Shown here: one piece after another, positions 3,728 to 48,149 of the stretch
Layout of the letters: each line of letters begins with the position of its first letter
Position numbering within the stretch: the stretch's first letter is position 1
Assembly (NCBI GenBank): GCA_947466955.1
Contig: CANIFM010000002.1
Location: 1 to 52,371 of the forward strand
DNA from: Bacteroidota bacterium
GTDB lineage: Bacteria; Bacteroidota; Bacteroidia; Flavobacteriales; Flavobacteriaceae
DNA: 52,371 bases
Direction: 5' to 3'
Notes under the pieces: generated by a model
The model's input: only the letters and a program-made list of their open reading frames with translations
What the model was told of the DNA's origin: nothing
Database searches by the model: none
Translations under genes and position numbers: made by a program

Positions 3728-4297
3728 ATGAAAAAAATAATAGTCATCGATAATTACGATAGTTTCACCTACAATTTGGTACACTGCTTAGAAGATTTAA
3801 ACTGCGAAGTAACCGTTTATAGAAACGACGAATTTGACATTGAAGAACTTCAAAAATTTGATAAAATCCTACTTTCACCAGGGCCAGGAATCCCGGATGA
3901 AGCGGGTTTACTCAAAGAAGTAATCAAAGCCTATTCGGCTACAAAAAGTATTCTAGGAGTTTGTTTAGGACAACAAGCCATCGCTGAAGTATTTGGCGGA
4001 AGCCTTATCAATCTTGAAAAAGTATATCACGGAGTAGCTTCAAATATTAAAATTCAAGTGCAAGACGAACCTTTATTTAAAGGTTTAGAATCTGAAATTG
4101 AAGTCGGGAGATACCATTCTTGGGTGGTTAATCCAACTGATATTCCTGAAGTTTTAGAAATCACATCATTAGATGAAAACGGGCAAATTATGTCATTGAG
4201 ACACCGGACTTTTGATGTTCGTGCCGTTCAATTTCATCCTGAAAGTATTTTGACACCGCACGGAAAAAAGATTTTAGAAAACTGGGTTGCACAATAA
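3728..4297 (+). CDS. trpG: Anthranilate synthase component II (glutamine amidotransferase)
   Basis: DNYDSFTYNLVH, SPGPGIPDEAG, GVCLGQQAI, QFHPESILTPHG. Confidence 0.97.
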   Translation: MKKIIVIDNYDSFTYNLVHCLEDLNCEVTVYRNDEFDIEELQKFDKILLSPGPGIPDEAGLLKEVIKAYSATKSILGVCLGQQAIAEVFGGSLINLEKVYHGVASNIKIQVQDEPLFKGLESEIEVGRYHSWVVNPTDIPEVLEITSLDENGQIMSLRHRTFDVRAVQFHPESILTPHGKKILENWVAQ

Positions 4298-4337
4298 ACG
4301 AAGATTTCAATAGCTACATTATTTATATTTAATTAAA

Positions 4338-5330
4338 ATGAAACACATACTTAACCGACTTATTAATCACGAAGTACTTTCAAAATTGGAAGCCAAAGAA
4401 GTTTTGGTAAATATTTCCAACGGGAGTTATAATACAAGCCAAATTGCAAGTTTTCTGACCGTTTATATGATGCGAAATATCACCATTGAGGAATTGGCAG
4501 GATTTCGGGAAGCTTTATTGGAGTTATGTATTTCTGTTGATTTATCAAATTATAATACCATCGATTTGTGCGGAACTGGTGGCGATGGAAAAGACACATT
4601 TAATATTTCAACATTGGCTTCATTTGTAACTGCAGGAGCTGGAGTTAAGGTTGCAAAACACGGAAATTACGGCGTTTCCTCAATTTCAGGTTCAAGTAAT
4701 GTAATGGAAATTCTTGGTGTAAAATTCAGTAATGACAATGCTTATTTGGAAAAATGCATCGATCAAGCTGGAATTTGCATTCTTCACGCGCCACTATTTC
4801 ATCCAGCAATGAAAAATGTTGGCCCTATTCGTAAAGAATTAGCCGTAAAAACGTTCTTCAATATGCTTGGGCCAATGGTAAATCCTTCGTTTCCACAGAA
4901 TCAATTGGTGGGTGTTTTCAACCTTGAATTGGCAAGAATGTACAGTTATTTATATCAAAATACGACTACCAATTTTACAATTTTGCACAGTTTAGACGGT
5001 TATGACGAAATTTCGTTGACTGGAAATACCAAAACCATTACAAATGCAATGGAAGGAATGTTGAAACCCGAAGATTTTGGAGTTTCAATTTTAAAGCAAA
5101 ATGAAATTCAAGGCGGAACTACCATCGAAGAATCGGCTAAATTATTTATGAATATAATAGAAGGCAAAGGAACTGACGCACAGAACAATGTAGTTTGTGC
5201 CAATGCTGGAATGGCAATTGCAACCGTTAATTCACTCTCACCAATTCAGGGATTTGAAATTGCAAAAGAAAGTTTGTTGTCAGGAAAAGCACTTTTAGCA
5301 TTAAATAAATTGCAACAATTAAGCAAATAA
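4338..5330 (+). CDS. trpD: Anthranilate phosphoribosyltransferase
   Basis: DLCGTGGDGKDTFNIST, KHGNYGVSSISGSSNVMEILG, FNMLGPMVNP. Confidence 0.97.
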   Translation: MKHILNRLINHEVLSKLEAKEVLVNISNGSYNTSQIASFLTVYMMRNITIEELAGFREALLELCISVDLSNYNTIDLCGTGGDGKDTFNISTLASFVTAGAGVKVAKHGNYGVSSISGSSNVMEILGVKFSNDNAYLEKCIDQAGICILHAPLFHPAMKNVGPIRKELAVKTFFNMLGPMVNPSFPQNQLVGVFNLELARMYSYLYQNTTTNFTILHSLDGYDEISLTGNTKTITNAMEGMLKPEDFGVSILKQNEIQGGTTIEESAKLFMNIIEGKGTDAQNNVVCANAGMAIATVNSLSPIQGFEIAKESLLSGKALLALNKLQQLSK

Positions 5331-9722: not shown

Positions 9723-11040
9723 ATTATTGCTTATTGCAATGGTTTTCATTGGAATTCCATCGCTTAAAGCACAAGAAAAAACAGGTTTAACACTCAATGA
9801 AGCCATCAATATTGTACTTTCCAAAAGTAGCGAAGTTGCCTTGGCATCTGCAAAAGTGGAAACCAAAAAATACGAATCGGAATCGATAAAGAACAATAAA
9901 TATCCAGATTTGAGAGTTTCAGGTCAGTATTTACGCCTTACAAATGCCAATGTAAATTCTAATTTGAATTCCAATTCATCCAATCCGCCATCTTCACCAT
10001 TGGCAGTAAATCAATTGATGCTTGGGCAAATAAATTCCAACTTACCATTATTTTCAGGATTTAAATTACAAAATAGCATTAAAGCTTCAGAGAATTTATA
10101 CCAATCTGAAAAAGCAAAATTGGAACAAACCAAGGAAGCTGTTGCTATGGAAGTTGTCGAATATTACGCTAATTTATACCGTGCTCAAAAAGCCGTAAAC
10201 CTAATTACAGACAATTTAAAATCCGCAGAACAACGCGTATCGGATTTTACTGCATTAGAAAAAAACGGAATTATTGCTCGAAATGATTTGCTGAAAGCGC
10301 AATTGCAACAATCAAAAGTGCAATTATCATTGGACGAAGCCTATAAAAATGTATCAGTTTTGAATTATTATCTCATCACACTTTTAAAACTTCCTGAAGA
10401 CTACAAAATTGGAATTGACGAAAATCAATTTGCAAACAACCAACCGATAAATATTATCAAAAACGAGGAAATTGCATTGAAAAATAGAAAGGATTTGGAA
10501 GCCATTCATTTCATTGAAAAAGCAAGCGAAAACAATATCAAAATCGCAAAAAGCGCCTATTTCCCAACCGTAAATTTAACGGGTGGATTTATTTATTTAG
10601 ATTTAAAAAATGCCTTAACTGTTTCAAATGCTATGAATTTTGGTGTTGGAATTTCGTATGATGTTGCTAATATTTTCAAAAACAAATCCAACGTAAAAGC
10701 TGCAAAAAGTAGAGCATTAGAAGCATCGGAATCAGCCGCTATATTATCAGAAAAAATAAAAATTCAGGTGCAACAAGCCATTGAAAACTATAATTTGGCA
10801 TTGAAACAAAATCTGGTTTACGAACAAGCAATTGGGCAAGCAACAGAAAATTATAGAATTGTAAAAGATAAATACGACAACGGACTTTCAAACACCACCG
10901 ATTTACTAGAAGCCGATGTAGAACAACTGAATTCTAAAATAAATTATGCGTATTCAAGAGCGAATATTATGCTCAAATATTACGAAATGCAATCCGCTTC
11001 AGGGCAATTAACACAATCATTCCAACTTACAAAAAACTAA
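9709..11040 (+). CDS. TolC family outer membrane efflux protein
   Basis: Signal peptide; repeated coiled-coil pattern typical of OEP family (LTLNEAINIVLSKSSEV..., DKYDNGLSNTTDLLEADVEQLNSK). Confidence 0.92.
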   Translation: MKVTKLLLIAMVFIGIPSLKAQEKTGLTLNEAINIVLSKSSEVALASAKVETKKYESESIKNNKYPDLRVSGQYLRLTNANVNSNLNSNSSNPPSSPLAVNQLMLGQINSNLPLFSGFKLQNSIKASENLYQSEKAKLEQTKEAVAMEVVEYYANLYRAQKAVNLITDNLKSAEQRVSDFTALEKNGIIARNDLLKAQLQQSKVQLSLDEAYKNVSVLNYYLITLLKLPEDYKIGIDENQFANNQPINIIKNEEIALKNRKDLEAIHFIEKASENNIKIAKSAYFPTVNLTGGFIYLDLKNALTVSNAMNFGVGISYDVANIFKNKSNVKAAKSRALEASESAAILSEKIKIQVQQAIENYNLALKQNLVYEQAIGQATENYRIVKDKYDNGLSNTTDLLEADVEQLNSKINYAYSRANIMLKYYEMQSASGQLTQSFQLTKN

Positions 11041-11051
11041 TATTTCATACT

Positions 11052-12128
11052 ATGGAAAATCAAAAAAGCAACAAAAAAAACATCATTATAGCCGTATTAA
11101 TTCTATCGGCATTGAGTTACGGAATCTATAAATATGTGCATTCTCTTTCTCACGAAAGTACGGACGACGCACAAATTGAAAAAAATATGAACCCAATTAT
11201 CCCAAGAGTCATGGGATATATCACGAAAGTAAATATCAAAGACAACGATTATGTAAAAAAAGGCGATACCCTTTTCACCATCGATAACAATGATTATATC
11301 GTGAAATTAGAAGATGCAAAAGCCGCATTAATTGCAGCGCAAGGCAATTTTGAAGTTTCAAAAGCCGATGTTGGAAGTGCTTTAGCGAGTGTTTCTGTAT
11401 CGGATGCCAACGTGCAATCGGCGAGTGGAACTATCGAAACTGCAAAAATCAGATTGGGACGAACAACCAACGATTTTGAGCGTTACGAAAATTTATATAA
11501 AAATCATTCTATTACAAAACAACAATACGAGCAAGCTTTGGCGGCAAAACAAGAGGCAGAAAGTCAGTTGCGAATTTTGCAACAACAACAAAAAGCCAGT
11601 ACATTTCAGAAATCGGTAATAATTGCAAAATCGAATGTTTCAAATAAACAAACCGAAGTAGCTTCCGCAAATATTAAACGTGCCGAAGCAATGTTGGCAG
11701 CAGCCAAATTAAACTTAAGTTATACAGTTGTAACCGCAGCAATTGACGGTCAAGTTTCTAAAATTTCCATTCAACCGGGACAATTAGTGCAACCGGGGCA
11801 AGCATTATTTTACATTATCAACAATCAAGAAGCGTGGGTAATTGCCAATTTCAAAGAAACACAATTGGACAAAATGAAAATGGGACAAAAAGTAACCGTG
11901 AAAGTTGATGCCTATCCAGACACCGATTTTCAAGGGGAACTTACTTCCTTTTCACCAGCAACAGGTTCTAAATTTTCTTTACTTCCGCCTGATAATGCCA
12001 CTGGAAATTTCGTGAAAACCATTCAACGATTGCCAGTGAAAATTAGTTTGAATACTTCTAATGATCCTGAAAAAATTAAATTACTACGTCCGGGAATGAA
12101 TGTAAATGTGGATGTTCATTTGAACTAA
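11052..12128 (+). CDS. HlyD/EmrA family periplasmic adaptor
   Basis: N-terminal TM, ESTDDAQIEKNMNPIIPRVMGYITKVNIKDNDYVKKGDTLFTID, C-terminal AGQLVQPGQALF-type barrel. Confidence 0.93.
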   Translation: MENQKSNKKNIIIAVLILSALSYGIYKYVHSLSHESTDDAQIEKNMNPIIPRVMGYITKVNIKDNDYVKKGDTLFTIDNNDYIVKLEDAKAALIAAQGNFEVSKADVGSALASVSVSDANVQSASGTIETAKIRLGRTTNDFERYENLYKNHSITKQQYEQALAAKQEAESQLRILQQQQKASTFQKSVIIAKSNVSNKQTEVASANIKRAEAMLAAAKLNLSYTVVTAAIDGQVSKISIQPGQLVQPGQALFYIINNQEAWVIANFKETQLDKMKMGQKVTVKVDAYPDTDFQGELTSFSPATGSKFSLLPPDNATGNFVKTIQRLPVKISLNTSNDPEKIKLLRPGMNVNVDVHLN

Positions 12129-13728: not shown

Positions 13729-13862
13729 TTGGGTGCGCCCTCGTTTAGAACGATTTTAGTTACTACGCCATCTGTACTAAACGAGGTCGGGCTATTCGCT
13801 GCAATCTTTGCTGCACTTCGTTCCGCAAAGGATTTCCGCTGCTATCCCTCGCACGAAACCCT
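13729..13862 (+). repeat. Interspersed structured repeat, copy C
   Basis: TTGGGTGCGCC CTCGTTTAG...CTAAACGAGG TCGGGCTATTCGCTGCAATCTTTG-hairpin-CAAAGGATTTCCGCTGCTATCCCTCGC. Confidence 0.8.
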
Positions 13863-13963
13863 TCGATTTAAGAATTATGATTTATAGATTTTAGATTTTA
13901 GAATAACCGAATACACCTTTTCAAATAAAAAGTCATTTTGACGATTTGTAAGTATAATAACGT

Positions 13964-13971
13964 TACATTTG
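13964..13971 (+). promoter_or_regulatory. TAnnTTTG -7 element upstream of cassette sORF/protease
   Basis: TAcaTTTG with TTTG upstream at 13937-13940. Confidence 0.5.
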
Positions 13972-13993
13972 AAAATAAATAACGGAGGTTATT

Positions 13994-14053
13994 ATGGCAC
14001 AAAGCCAACCCTTTTTGGGTAGATTACAGCCATTTTATGGCTGGTATAAATGA
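13994..14053 (+). CDS. Candidate 19-aa sORF (MAQSQPFLGRLQPFYGWYK)
   Basis: ATG right after a GGAGG motif in the loop of AATAAC-GGAG-GTTATT; stop TGA abuts the cassette junction. Confidence 0.45.
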   Translation: MAQSQPFLGRLQPFYGWYK

Positions 14054-14067
14054 GTTGGCAGTAATGC
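14054..14067 (+). other. Left end of putative integron-type cassette (GTTGGCAGTAATGC)
   Basis: 13/14 complementary to GCACTACTGCCAAC at 15229-15242 at the other end of the two-gene unit. Confidence 0.6.
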
Positions 14068-14110
14068 TAACGCAGAATCGACAAATTCAAGAACTTAATC
14101 AATATAATAT

Positions 14111-14764
14111 ATGAACATACAAACTTTACATCAAAAAATTTATACAGTTGGGAGAATTACTCCAACTGGCGTAAAGCTATTAGGAACTTGTTTTTCATTG
14201 AATGAAAGAGGGCTTTTTGCTACAGCGTCACATGTAACAAATAATGATAATACTAATCTCGTAATTTTTATTACCAATAATACAGACTTGACAACTTATC
14301 AAGACACATCAAATAATAGTGGTCAGACTATTCCAGTTTCAATTTACAAAGTTGATCCAATACGAGATATTTGTATTTTGCAAGTTGAACAAAATGTTTT
14401 TTCAGATTTGGTAATTGGAGGAAGTGATGACACAAATGTTGGAGAAAATGTTGGAATAGTTGGGTTTCCACATTGTGTTAATGGTAGAAATGTTTTAACG
14501 TACCAAAACACTGAAATTGGCGCCAAAGTACTAATTGAATCATCAGGAATAAAGTCTAAACATTTAATATTAAATATTCAAACCCGACCTGGACAATCAG
14601 GAAGCCCAATATTTCGCTTGTCAGATTCGCGTGTAATTGGAATGATTATTGGCTCTTACGTCCCAAATTCTGGAGGAAGTATTTCATTGGGTGGAATCGA
14701 CCCTGAAACTCTTCACCAAACTACTCATGCTGTTTCAACGGAATATATAACCAAAATGTTATAA
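14111..14764 (+). CDS. Trypsin-like serine peptidase (S1/HtrA-like fold, no PDZ)
   Basis: Triad context: FATASHV (His), DPIRDICIL (Asp), TRPGQSGSPIF (Ser). Confidence 0.88.
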   Translation: MNIQTLHQKIYTVGRITPTGVKLLGTCFSLNERGLFATASHVTNNDNTNLVIFITNNTDLTTYQDTSNNSGQTIPVSIYKVDPIRDICILQVEQNVFSDLVIGGSDDTNVGENVGIVGFPHCVNGRNVLTYQNTEIGAKVLIESSGIKSKHLILNIQTRPGQSGSPIFRLSDSRVIGMIIGSYVPNSGGSISLGGIDPETLHQTTHAVSTEYITKML

Positions 14765-14766
14765 TT

Positions 14767-15228
14767 ATGGAAGAATTTGACACATTAATTAACGCAGACC
14801 AAGCTGAAATATTAGCTTCTTTAGATGGTTTCCAAGTCGAAATTCTTGAATCATTTCTCATGCAAACTAAAAATGATTATTTAGAAAGCGCAGATAAATG
14901 GTTAAACGCAACAACCGCAAATACTGCTCAATTTGGAGGAGAAACAGGAAAGGCAAAAATCTACAGAGAAAAGTTACTTGATGAGATTGAAAAGTTCTTT
15001 TGTGGCGATGAATCTTATGAAGACGACAGAAAAAAAATAAGTGAAAGTACAGAGAAAACTAAACAATATTTAATTGGAGTTTTATCATCAGCAATTGGTG
15101 CGACGATGGGAGTTGCAGGAACTTTTATAGCTCCGGTTATAGCCTTACTTATAATGAGTATGGGAAAAATGGGAGTTAATGCTTGGTGTGCAATGAGGGT
15201 TGAAATAAAGGCTAATCAGCAGACATAA
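14767..15228 (+). CDS. Small membrane protein with C-terminal hydrophobic Gly-rich segment, unknown function
   Basis: 2 bp after the protease stop; soluble helical N-terminus then YLIGVLSSAIGATMGVAGTFIAPVIALLIMSMG. Confidence 0.75.
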   Translation: MEEFDTLINADQAEILASLDGFQVEILESFLMQTKNDYLESADKWLNATTANTAQFGGETGKAKIYREKLLDEIEKFFCGDESYEDDRKKISESTEKTKQYLIGVLSSAIGATMGVAGTFIAPVIALLIMSMGKMGVNAWCAMRVEIKANQQT

Positions 15229-15371
15229 GCACTACTGCCAACACAGGTTTTGCGCTATTGCGGTTTTAAGGCTTAATTTAAAGTTTGTTTTATATCTTTG
15301 AAGTCAGTGCTTAACCGAAAATTTCGGCATCTTTAGTCCGCAACATCGCAAAGCCTGGGGACGTTAGGTGC
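15229..15371 (+). repeat. attC-like recombination site
   Basis: CTGCCAAC (R''-like), arm CAGGTTTTGCGCTATTGCGG, opposite arm CCGCAACATCGCAAAGCCTG (17/20 paired), then ACGTTAGGT (perfect GTTRRRY). Confidence 0.6.
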
Positions 15372-15422
15372 AAGCGTAACGCCTGTTCAGACATAAACTA
15401 AAGACGAAAATGCCAACGCTTC

Positions 15423-15486
15423 GCAAAATTAAAGTGGTGCAAGCCACTGCACAAGCCGACCCAAATTGCACCACATTTAATTTTGC
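15423..15486. repeat. Large imperfect inverted repeat (~20-bp arms)
   Basis: GCAAAATTAAAGTGGTGCAA / TTGCACCACATTTAATTTTGC around a 23-nt loop. Confidence 0.7.
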
Positions 15487-15650
15487 CCAACCACACCCAA
15501 TGACCACCCACCACCCTGACAAATTGTTGAGAAGTTTGACGACTTCTTTATAACGACTTTGGAAAATTCTTTTTATATTCGCTCGGTGAGTTTTCTTTAG
15601 CAAATGGAAATGAATTAAAATTCATTAAAAAAAAATAAAATAATAGTATT

Positions 15651-16379: not shown

Positions 16380-16757
16380 CTTATATTTATTGCAGTCTAA
16401 CTTGTATTTATTGCAGTCCAACTTATAAATCTAGCGGTCTGACTTATAAACCTAGCGGTCTGACTTGTAAACCTAGCGGTCTGACTTATAAACATAGCAG
16501 TCTGACTTGTAATTATGCTTCCTGCATTTGTAGTTATGCTTACTGCATTTGTTATTATGCTTCCTGCGTTTGTAATTATGCTTCCCGCATTTGTAATTAT
16601 GCTTCCTGCATTTGTAATTATGCTTCCTGCGTTTGTAATTATGCTTCCTGCGTTTTTAATTATGCTTCCTGCATTTGTAATTATGCTTCCTGCATTTGTA
16701 ATTATGCTTCCTGCATTTGTAATTATGCTTCCTGCATTTGTAATTATAACTTTTGCT
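16380..16757. repeat. 21-bp tandem repeat array, 17 units plus a degenerate one, two sub-types
   Basis: Units at exact 21-nt spacing: cttRtaaacctagcggtctga (x6) then tttgtaattatgcttcctgca (x11). Confidence 0.95.
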
Positions 16758-16875
16758 GTGCAAAGTTCCACGACTTCGTACACACAAAGACAAGAAAAAA
16801 ACGAATGATTTTAATAATAAAAATTAGCATCTGAAATAAATTCAGATTGACAAAAAAGGGCTTTTTGTTATGCAA

Positions 16876-16991: not shown

Positions 16992-17291
16992 ATGAACCTA
17001 ATAGAAAATCATAATAAAGACATATTCGATTTATGCAAAACGCATAAAGTAAAATCTTTATATGCTTTTGGTTCTGTTTTAACTGATAAATTCAACAACG
17101 AAAGTGATGTTGATTTGATTGTTGATTTTGAAAATTTGGATGTTTTAGATTATGGAGATAACTATTATAACTTAAAGTTTTCACTTGAAAATATTTTAAA
17201 AAGAAATATTGATTTATTAGAAGAAAAAGCCATAAAAAATCCATATTTTAGAAAGACTTTAAACCAAAATAAAGTGTTGATTTATGGATGA
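16992..17291 (+). CDS. MntA-like nucleotidyltransferase domain antitoxin
   Basis: FGSVLTDKFNNESDVDLIVDF (GSx10DxD minimal nucleotidyltransferase motif). Confidence 0.88.
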   Translation: MNLIENHNKDIFDLCKTHKVKSLYAFGSVLTDKFNNESDVDLIVDFENLDVLDYGDNYYNLKFSLENILKRNIDLLEEKAIKNPYFRKTLNQNKVLIYG

Positions 17292-17623
17292 TACTATTAA
17301 AACTTGGCTTTATGATATTTTAAGTTCCATTAATGAAATCGAAAGTTACTTTATTGAAACACCTAAAATGTTTTGAAATTTATCAAAATGATTTAAAAAC
17401 TAAAAGAGCTGTTGAAAGAAACATCGAAATTATTGGAGAAGCAATGAGTCGAATTCGAAAAGAAAATAGTAAAATTGAAATTTCAAACTCAAGAAAAATT
17501 GTAGATGTAAGAAATAGAATAATTCACGGATATGATTCCGTTTCTGATGATGTAATTTGGGGAATTGTAATTAGAAATCTGCCAGTTTTACAAAAAGAAG
17601 TAGAAATTCTGTTGAACGAATAA
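17284..17623 (+). pseudogene. HepT-like HEPN (DUF86) RNase toxin with +1 frameshift
   Basis: MDDTIKTWLYDILSSINEIESYFIETPKMF* in frame 1 (stop 17374-17376), continuing +1 as EIYQNDLKTKRAVERNIEIIGEAMSRI...VRNRIIHGYDSV (HEPN RX4H motif). Confidence 0.8.
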
Positions 17624-17659: not shown

Positions 17660-17870
17660 GAAAATGTTATGTTTCGATACCATTTTCGATATGCGAATTT
17701 ACAATCTGTCCCCACAAAGTCAAGAAAAAATAATTGTGAAGAGATTGCCACGTTCCTCGCAATGATATTCTAACACGATTACGGATGCGACACCTAATTG
17801 CCCTCGATACTACTATAAAAATAGAAACTGAAATAAATTCAGATTGACAAATCAAAGGTTAAATTCAGAT
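17660..17870 (+). repeat. Composite interspersed repeat, copy 1
   Basis: Shares ATATTCTAACACGATTACGGATGCGACACCTAATTGCCCTCGATACTACT...CTGAAATAAATTCAGATTGACAAATCAAAGGTTAAATTCAGATT with 17950-18180 and 47243-47412. Confidence 0.85.
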
Positions 17871-17896
17871 TGATAAAATAGGTTTATTTGTTTCAC

Positions 17897-17929
17897 AACT
17901 CCGTCAGAGTTTAAAACTCTGACGGAGTT
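17897..17929. repeat. Palindromic repeat AACTCCGTCAGAGTTTAAAACTCTGACGGAGTT
   Basis: Perfect inverted repeat; copy at 16876-16903. Confidence 0.8.
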
Positions 17930-17949
17930 AAGCGATAATCAAGATGGCT

Positions 17950-18180
17950 CGGATATGTTACGTTTCGATACCCGTTTCGATAGCGCGGATTTGCAATCCG
18001 TGCCCATAAATACAAGAAAAAATAATTATGATGAGATTGCCTTGTTTCCCTCAATGATATTCTAACACGATTACGGATGCGACACCTAATTGCCCTCGAT
18101 ACTACTGTAAAAATAGAATCTGAAATAAATTCAGGTTGACAAATCAAAGGTTAAATTCAGTTTGATAAACCAAAGGTTAA
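17950..18180 (+). repeat. Composite interspersed repeat, copy 2
   Basis: Near-duplicate of 17660-17870 including GCGCGGATTTGCAATCCGTGCCCA and TTACGGATGCGACACC. Confidence 0.85.
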
Positions 18181-18253
18181 ATTCAGATTTTCCAAATAAC
18201 CGAATTAACAAATAACCAAATCAACGAATCCACAAATAAACCCTTCCTAAAAA

Positions 18254-47412: not shown

Positions 47413-47511
47413 ATCAGACCCCTCGGATATGTCCCACAACGTATAGGGCATTTGCACAATATATATTAAATCTAATTTACTTGTGTTCGGTTGAGAGTCA
47501 TCCGACAAGAA

Positions 47512-47861
47512 ATCAATCGTCGGCAGGTTGGATACTCAGTATCTGAGTAGAAAACAATCGTCGGCGGGTTGGATACTCAGTATCTGAGTAGAAAACGATT
47601 GTCGGCAGGTTGGATACTCAGTATCCTATGAGAAATCAATCGTCGGCGGGTTGGATACTGAGTATCTGAGCAGAAAACGATTGTCGGCGGGTTGGATACT
47701 CAGTATCTGAGCAGAAAACGATCGTCGGCGGGTTGGATACTGAGTATCTGAGCAGAAAACGATTGTCGGCAGGTTGGATACTCAGTATCTGATGAGAAAT
47801 CAATCGTCGGCGGGTTGGATACTCAGTATCTGAGTAGAAATCAATCGTCGGCGGGTTGGAT
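47512..47861 (+). repeat. 41-bp tandem repeat array (about 9 units)
   Basis: Anchor TCGGC(A/G)GGTTGGAT at 47520, 47561, 47602, 47643, 47684, 47725, 47766, 47807, 47848: invariant 41-nt spacing. Confidence 0.97.
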
Positions 47862-48149
47862 CACCCTTTTCTGAACTCTAATAAATTATTTTTGAAAGGC
47901 TTTTTTGATTTTTTTTAAAAAAATCTGAAATAAATTCAGTTTGAAAAATCAAAGGTTAAATTCAGATTATCTAAGGGTTAATTCGGTTATTCGGAAAATC
48001 TTAAATCTTAAATCATAAATCGAGGTTAGCATGAATGGTGGCAGCGGAAATCTTCTGTGGAACAATCCATTTTATAACGTTTGATTTTAATCTAATGGAA
48101 TATAAGTATCGCAGCTTTGCATAAGTTATTATGAAAATCTAAACGTGAA

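Follow-up and report, generated by a model that had tools for sequence, protein, structure and literature searches.

A PDC-M35-type protease gene pair in a probable integron-type cassette at a flavobacterial attI site

Genes and features of the locus

The DNA studied here (the window) is a stretch of 52,371 nucleotides of contig CANIFM010000002.1 from a member of the Flavobacteriaceae (assembly GCA_947466955.1). It carries a two-gene unit, genes A and B, that is bounded on both sides by sequences resembling integron recombination sites (Table 1).

Table 1. Features at the cassette locus (window coordinates)
Feature	Position	Strand	Evidence or remark
3' remnant of an integron-type tyrosine recombinase gene (QIKSHFDDL, then stop)	13922..13951	+	In-frame C-terminus match to relatives
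attI site with putative promoter (TTTG...TACATTTG), leader peptide and two hairpins	13952..14054	+	Multiple alignment; crossover after G14054
attI leader ORF (MAQSQPFLGRLQPFYGWYK, then stop)	13994..14053	+	Stop codon abuts the crossover
Cassette 5' end (GTTGGCAGTAATGC)	14054..14067	+	Complementary to 15229-15242; crossover between 14054 and 14055
Gene A, trypsin/HtrA-fold serine protease, PDC-M35A	14111..14764	+	Pfam Trypsin_2, PADLOC, Foldseek
Gene B, 153-aa helical protein with C-terminal hydrophobic helix, PDC-M35B	14767..15228	+	PADLOC, AF2 model
attC-like recombination site (GCACTACTGCCAAC ... GTTAGGT)	15229..15369	+	Crossover between 15363 and 15364
Right flank, dispersed repeat	15364..15560	+	Directly behind attI in relative G1190 (L082); repeat in many genomes of the genus

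The window additionally contains an Rfam Flavo-1 RNA on the minus strand (13781-13857; 54.5 bits, gathering cut-off 42), with a 78% similar repeat copy at 1892-1965, a 21-bp tandem repeat that is open on both strands and likely non-genic (16465-16789), and an MNT nucleotidyltransferase/HepT-like toxin-antitoxin pair (16992-17623), which lies 1.6 kb downstream of the cassette. A 41-nt tandem repeat (D2; 47459-47909) is flanked by the dispersed repeats D3 and D4, copies of which are also present at 17693-18189.

The protease and its helical partner

Gene A encodes a 217-aa protein of the chymotrypsin/HtrA fold class that matches Pfam Trypsin_2 with 63.8 bits (cut-off 27.6). An earlier, sequence-only reading of this DNA had recognized a trypsin-like protease from the contexts of its catalytic triad, and these residues, H41 (ASHV), D86 (DPIRDICIL) and S163 (GQSGSP), are indeed intact and unchanged in all 19 aligned sequences. 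The nearest folds found with Foldseek are those of HtrA/Deg/V8 proteases (E about 1e-10), and the NCBIfam HtrA models score the protein at 16-19 bits against cut-offs of 450-470, values that leave it outside the HtrA/Deg family. Since Trypsin_2 is the sole domain found in the 217 amino acids, with no PDZ domain and, as judged by eye, no visible export signal, A is probably a cytoplasmic protease. The protein also weakly matches the RT-Protease, HamA1 and LmuA models (37-53 bits); a search of the INPHARED phages with A gave no match.

Gene B starts 2 bp after the end of A, and the AlphaFold2 model of its product is all-helical, with 10 helices and a mean pLDDT of 87. The helical, soluble N-terminus and the hydrophobic C-terminus that had been proposed for this protein are borne out by the model and by hydropathy, and a hydrophobic segment of the membrane type is predicted; only one helix, however, is clearly of membrane grade. 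This strong stretch has a KD19 value of 2.08 (1.8-2.7 across 20 of 20 aligned sequences) and is preceded by a weaker one. Outside the hydrophobic helix, W45, E73 and Y84 are invariant. The motif T53-x-x-F56-G57, which is strongly conserved, lies in the least ordered block of the model (residues 51-60, mean pLDDT 54); because this motif is conserved although the loop is predicted to be flexible, the T-x-x-F-G-G loop (residues 53-58) suggests itself as a candidate recognition or cleavage site. The model of B matched no fold in the PDB (E <= 0.001) or among the viral folds of BFVD, no profile in the PDB matched the protein, and no structural relatives were found among pore formers; its assignment as a gasdermin, a colicin or another known fold was therefore rejected.

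Both proteins match the PADLOC models of PDC-M35 over their full length (PADLOC-DB 2.0.0), PDC being short for phage defence candidate (PMC11514479, PMC12753311). Residues 5-217 of A cover positions 3-216 of the 216-residue PDC-M35A model (316.5 bits), and residues 1-146 of B, which adjoins A, cover positions 1-145 of the 148-residue PDC-M35B model (174.1 bits). Judged by these profiles, the pair is almost certainly a member of PDC-M35. Neither a paper on PDC-M35 nor a published functional test of it was found in the literature searched.

Cassette boundaries and the attC-like site

The sequence-only reading had placed the two genes in an integron-type cassette with complementary ends and an attC-like hairpin. 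The two ends (14054-14067 and 15229-15242) do pair, with one mismatch in 14 positions; of 300 random 71/72-bp pairs drawn from the contig, 11 had no more than two mismatches, and the complementarity by itself is thus only moderately unlikely. The cassette claim was therefore tested by comparison, which delimits the exact cassette to 14055-15363 (1309 bp). The same layout of the ends is found in a cassette of Polaribacter that carries the pair (GTTAGCTGTAAT / ACTACAGCTAAC).

The hairpin holds up as well: when compared with shuffles, it has a z value of about -2.6 to -3.0, and copies of the site with 77-78% identity are present elsewhere in the same genome, one of which (L004, 10636-10775) folds no better than shuffles. 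About 60 attC-like sites of Polaribacter, together with one site at L057, gave a mean z of -3.10 versus -0.40 for the control. The core sites, GTTGGCA and TGCCAAC, deviate from the strict GTTRRRY/RYYYAAC consensus, and only GTT/AAC is conserved across sites. A second attC was not found downstream of 15364 within the window, so that the pair constitutes a lone cassette here. Elsewhere in this genome (G000), attC-like sites occur on contig C17 (L004, ~10636-11520) and on contig C151 (L005, 2532-4222), where the cassettes encode RelE/ParE-like and hypothetical proteins.

The attI site, the lost integrase and the platform of relatives

Upstream of the cassette, the window keeps only the last codons of a recombinase gene, followed by an attI site whose putative promoter was assigned from the Bacteroidota consensus. 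Complete recombinases of relatives end in QIKSPFDDL or QIKSPFNDL, in each case followed by the stop codon, and the leader ORF of the attI site has a related counterpart at L079 (MAQSQPKLGRLEPFYGWYK, two copies). When the flanks of the cassette were joined and searched in 250 genomes of the genus, the left flank proved to be conserved and to end at the G^TT crossover. In relatives, a complete recombinase of ~347-374 aa is located directly upstream of the same attI and in the same orientation, an arrangement present at no fewer than eight loci of the genus (L087-L091, L094-L096; platform loci of the window genus as a whole, L087-L096). In G1190 (L082), attI is joined directly to an element that resembles the right flank and starts with TTAGGTGCAAGCG; we regard this junction as a probable empty site.

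The closest homologue of the pair, with 82% identity in A, resides in Polaribacter sp. Hel1_85 (platform loci L054/L055/L058/L020/L059), where the pair is one cassette amid ~60 attC-like sites that all lie on one strand. On one contig, this array begins directly behind a tyrosine recombinase gene, and it also holds a type II restriction-modification (RM) pair and AbiGi- and PDC-S11-like genes.

No match to the integrase was found at E <= 1e-30 in the genome to which the window belongs (88% complete), and a 303-aa recombinase encoded on its contig C6 was rejected as an IntI candidate, because Xer-like recombinases of ~300 aa in other genomes reach the same TIGR02249 score. Taken together, the attI site, the integrase remnant, the probable empty site and the loci of relatives argue that the pair is the first cassette in an integron whose integrase has been lost, and an integron-type cassette at attI is, on these comparisons, very probable.

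As to the class of this platform, the recombinases of the relatives match NF040815 (XerA/integron integrase) near its cut-off. TIGR02249 scores them at 188-214 bits (cut-off 265), aligning to position ~178 and then only from ~238 onwards, and residues 190-242 of IntI4 (2a3v) are left unmatched. The IntI-specific additional domain, which serves to define integron integrases (PMC9668308), is therefore absent, and the platform appears to be an integron-type element of Bacteroidota that departs from the canonical IntI integron. No description of such a platform was found in the literature searched, a search that had subscription journals and preprints outside its scope. One may ask whether the carrier is an integron at all or another hairpin-bounded mobile element, a reading that could invoke both the reduction of the core sites to GTT/AAC and the missing domain of the recombinase. 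The order of recombinase, attI and cassettes, the mutually complementary cassette ends, the G^TT crossover, the structured sites, the co-directional array of ~60 sites and the probable empty site all speak against it, and we consider it very unlikely.

Distribution and co-occurrence of the two genes

A scan of the GTDB representatives with A revealed at least 19 loci in Bacteroidota, Bacillota, Actinomycetota, Chloroflexota and Pseudomonadota, a count that is a lower bound on the number of relatives. In every intact relative found through A, including those from the genome and viral scans (L016 and L039 among the viral contigs) and both plasmid hits, B follows directly 3' of A, usually overlapping it or within 5 bp; the exceptions are one locus at a contig end and one at which A is a pseudogene. 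Conversely, A is present at all strong hits of a search that started from B; a remote B-like protein of 164 aa in G902 (L065; E = 2.7e-10) has no protease gene adjoining. The close co-occurrence on which the sequence-only reading had staked its proposal was thus found, and the evolutionary distances of A and B co-vary (r = 0.94; matched by 0 of 2000 permutations), which argues that the pair moves as a unit. Its distribution is rare and patchy: it was detected in 2 of 297 Bacteroidota genomes and in 13 of 5426 E. coli genomes.

Two loci preserve one partner only. On a Klebsiella plasmid (L018; NZ_CP058136.1), A is intact and B (within 4246-4743) is truncated before its hydrophobic helices, cut near position 4565 by unrelated DNA that runs into aadB; at L036, B is intact and A is frameshifted, a frameshift that may be an assembly error. 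Because such single-gene remnants exist, neither gene alone appears to be obviously lethal, as one would expect if both genes plus a trigger are required. Since unrelated sequence truncates B before aadB, the position of the plasmid pair beside this gene was rejected as independent evidence for a cassette.

Defence context

Several relatives of the pair have defence genes as neighbours: type I RM systems at L026 and L029 and, by reading of translations, in G274, a DpnII-like type II RM system at L033, AbiL and an Avs2-like gene at L032, and an Old/GajA-like gene at L024. These neighbours were recorded locus by locus and are no measure of enrichment. At some other relatives the neighbours are housekeeping genes (L021, and L022 with a gene resembling that of seryl-tRNA synthetase).

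In the two E. coli genomes that were opened among the 13 positive ones, the pair lies between the genes for the P2 replication endonuclease (gpA) and the portal protein. It likewise adjoins the P2 portal gene at L039, where the gpA replication gene precedes it, and on the viral contig L016. An E. coli P2-like prophage copy of the pair is represented by WP_001350593.1 and WP_000560513.1. The gpA-gpQ slot of P2 is a hotspot known to house many tested anti-phage genes, old and tin among them (PMC9122126, PMC9519451). A protease pair is not mentioned in the main text of PMC9122126, nor a trypsin or serine protease in that of PMC9519451.

The earlier suggestion of a candidate defence module thereby gains good circumstantial support from the PDC-M35 match, the defence neighbours and the P2 hotspot, and no housekeeping role for the pair was found. 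On this comparative evidence, we regard an anti-phage role as likely. The copies in the phage-exclusion slot of E. coli prophages make the catalogue entry PDC-M35 testable by standard phage assays.

Possible mechanism and alternative explanations

The best explanation that we can offer, and one that we hold tentatively, at somewhat under an even chance, is that a PDC-M35 anti-phage module forms the first cassette of an integrase-less integron in a Flavobacterium-like host. The pair would be expressed from the attI promoter, and A and B would be made in step and form a dormant complex; phage infection would release or activate A, which would then cut B, perhaps in the T-x-x-F-G-G loop. The freed C-terminal helices of B (residues 99-151) might enter the inner membrane and arrest the infected cell. 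If the pair does serve in defence, we would give membrane damage by B following the action of A an even chance. A membrane-disrupting partner activated by the protease, and hence programmed death, as the sequence-only reading had envisioned, is compatible with the data and is our preferred mechanism; no sensor domain was found in the pair. The earlier interpretation as a whole is partly supported.

Within a defensive function, the roles of the two proteins could also be reversed: A may itself be the effector and cut essential host or phage proteins, with B acting as a membrane anchor, folding partner or inhibitor/sensor. This possibility, which falls well short of an even chance and is nearly as likely as the preferred membrane-damage model, accords with the fact that trypsin-like domains serve several defence families as an effector or a switch, and with the weak matches of A to the RT-Protease, HamA1 and LmuA models. 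The single strongly hydrophobic helix of B and its invariant residues W45, E73 and Y84 outside this helix, which would suit a protein-protein or ligand surface, fit it as well; the Klebsiella plasmid argues against it, as intact A is carried there with a truncated B and is thus not freely toxic without full-length B, unless it is unexpressed.

Explanations without a direct anti-phage role appear weaker to us. An addiction module of the toxin-antitoxin kind that stabilizes the cassette array would be in keeping with the translational coupling of A and B and with the RelE/ParE-like gene that adjoins an attC-like site on contig C17 of the same genome, but either partner has been lost naturally (L018, L036), the pair is also found where there is no array, in prophages, on plasmids and in islands, and A is an enzyme and not a typical labile antitoxin; we deem this improbable. 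More improbable still is a function in envelope protein quality control or regulated proteolysis, with A as a cytoplasmic HtrA-like protease brought to the membrane by B. The nearest solved folds to A are those of HtrA/Deg proteases, but no PDZ domain or signal peptide is visible in A, and the very patchy occurrence in Bacteroidota and E. coli as well as the residence in prophage accessory slots and cassettes are unlike those of housekeeping genes.

Should B prove to be a membrane protein that a protease activates, the cell death known from gasdermins would also be reachable by an all-helical, non-gasdermin protein. A bolder reading, which we consider possible yet doubtful, is that a distinct class of integrons in flavobacteria and their relatives, with a XerA-like integrase that lacks the IntI-specific domain and is co-directional with the cassettes, and with a leader-peptide attI, shuttles defence cassettes such as PDC-M35, the protease of which activates a new, non-gasdermin membrane-acting killer. 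If this were true, such integrons would be expected to be missed by standard integron finders. The setting of the pair itself points to a family of Bacteroidota integrons with an integrase devoid of the usual recognition domain, so that their cassettes, including those with defence genes, may be under-counted.

Comparison with known systems

With chromosomal integrons, the platform shares an attI beside the integrase (in relatives), the G^TT crossover, structured attC-like sites, co-directional cassettes and a leader peptide at attI. It differs from them in its integrase, which is XerA-like, lacks the IntI-specific domain and shares the orientation of the cassettes, and in a core consensus that is reduced to GTT/AAC.

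Bacterial gasdermin and CARD-NLR systems likewise place a trypsin-like protease gene beside a potential membrane-acting partner; B, however, is all-helical, has 153 aa and shows no match to a gasdermin-like fold, and the unit in the window contains no CARD, NLR or ATPase gene. A trypsin-like domain is common to A and to Lamassu LmuA, Hachiman HamA1 and the RT-protease fusions, whereas the SMC, helicase or reverse transcriptase partners of these systems are absent from the unit. The P2 old/tin locus resembles the pair in the slot that the E. coli relatives occupy, while the proteins themselves differ. The closest correspondence is to PDC-M35 of PADLOC, with which both proteins agree over their full length, in gene order and in coupling; the pair is thus already catalogued, and its setting in an integron cassette is what the present locus adds.
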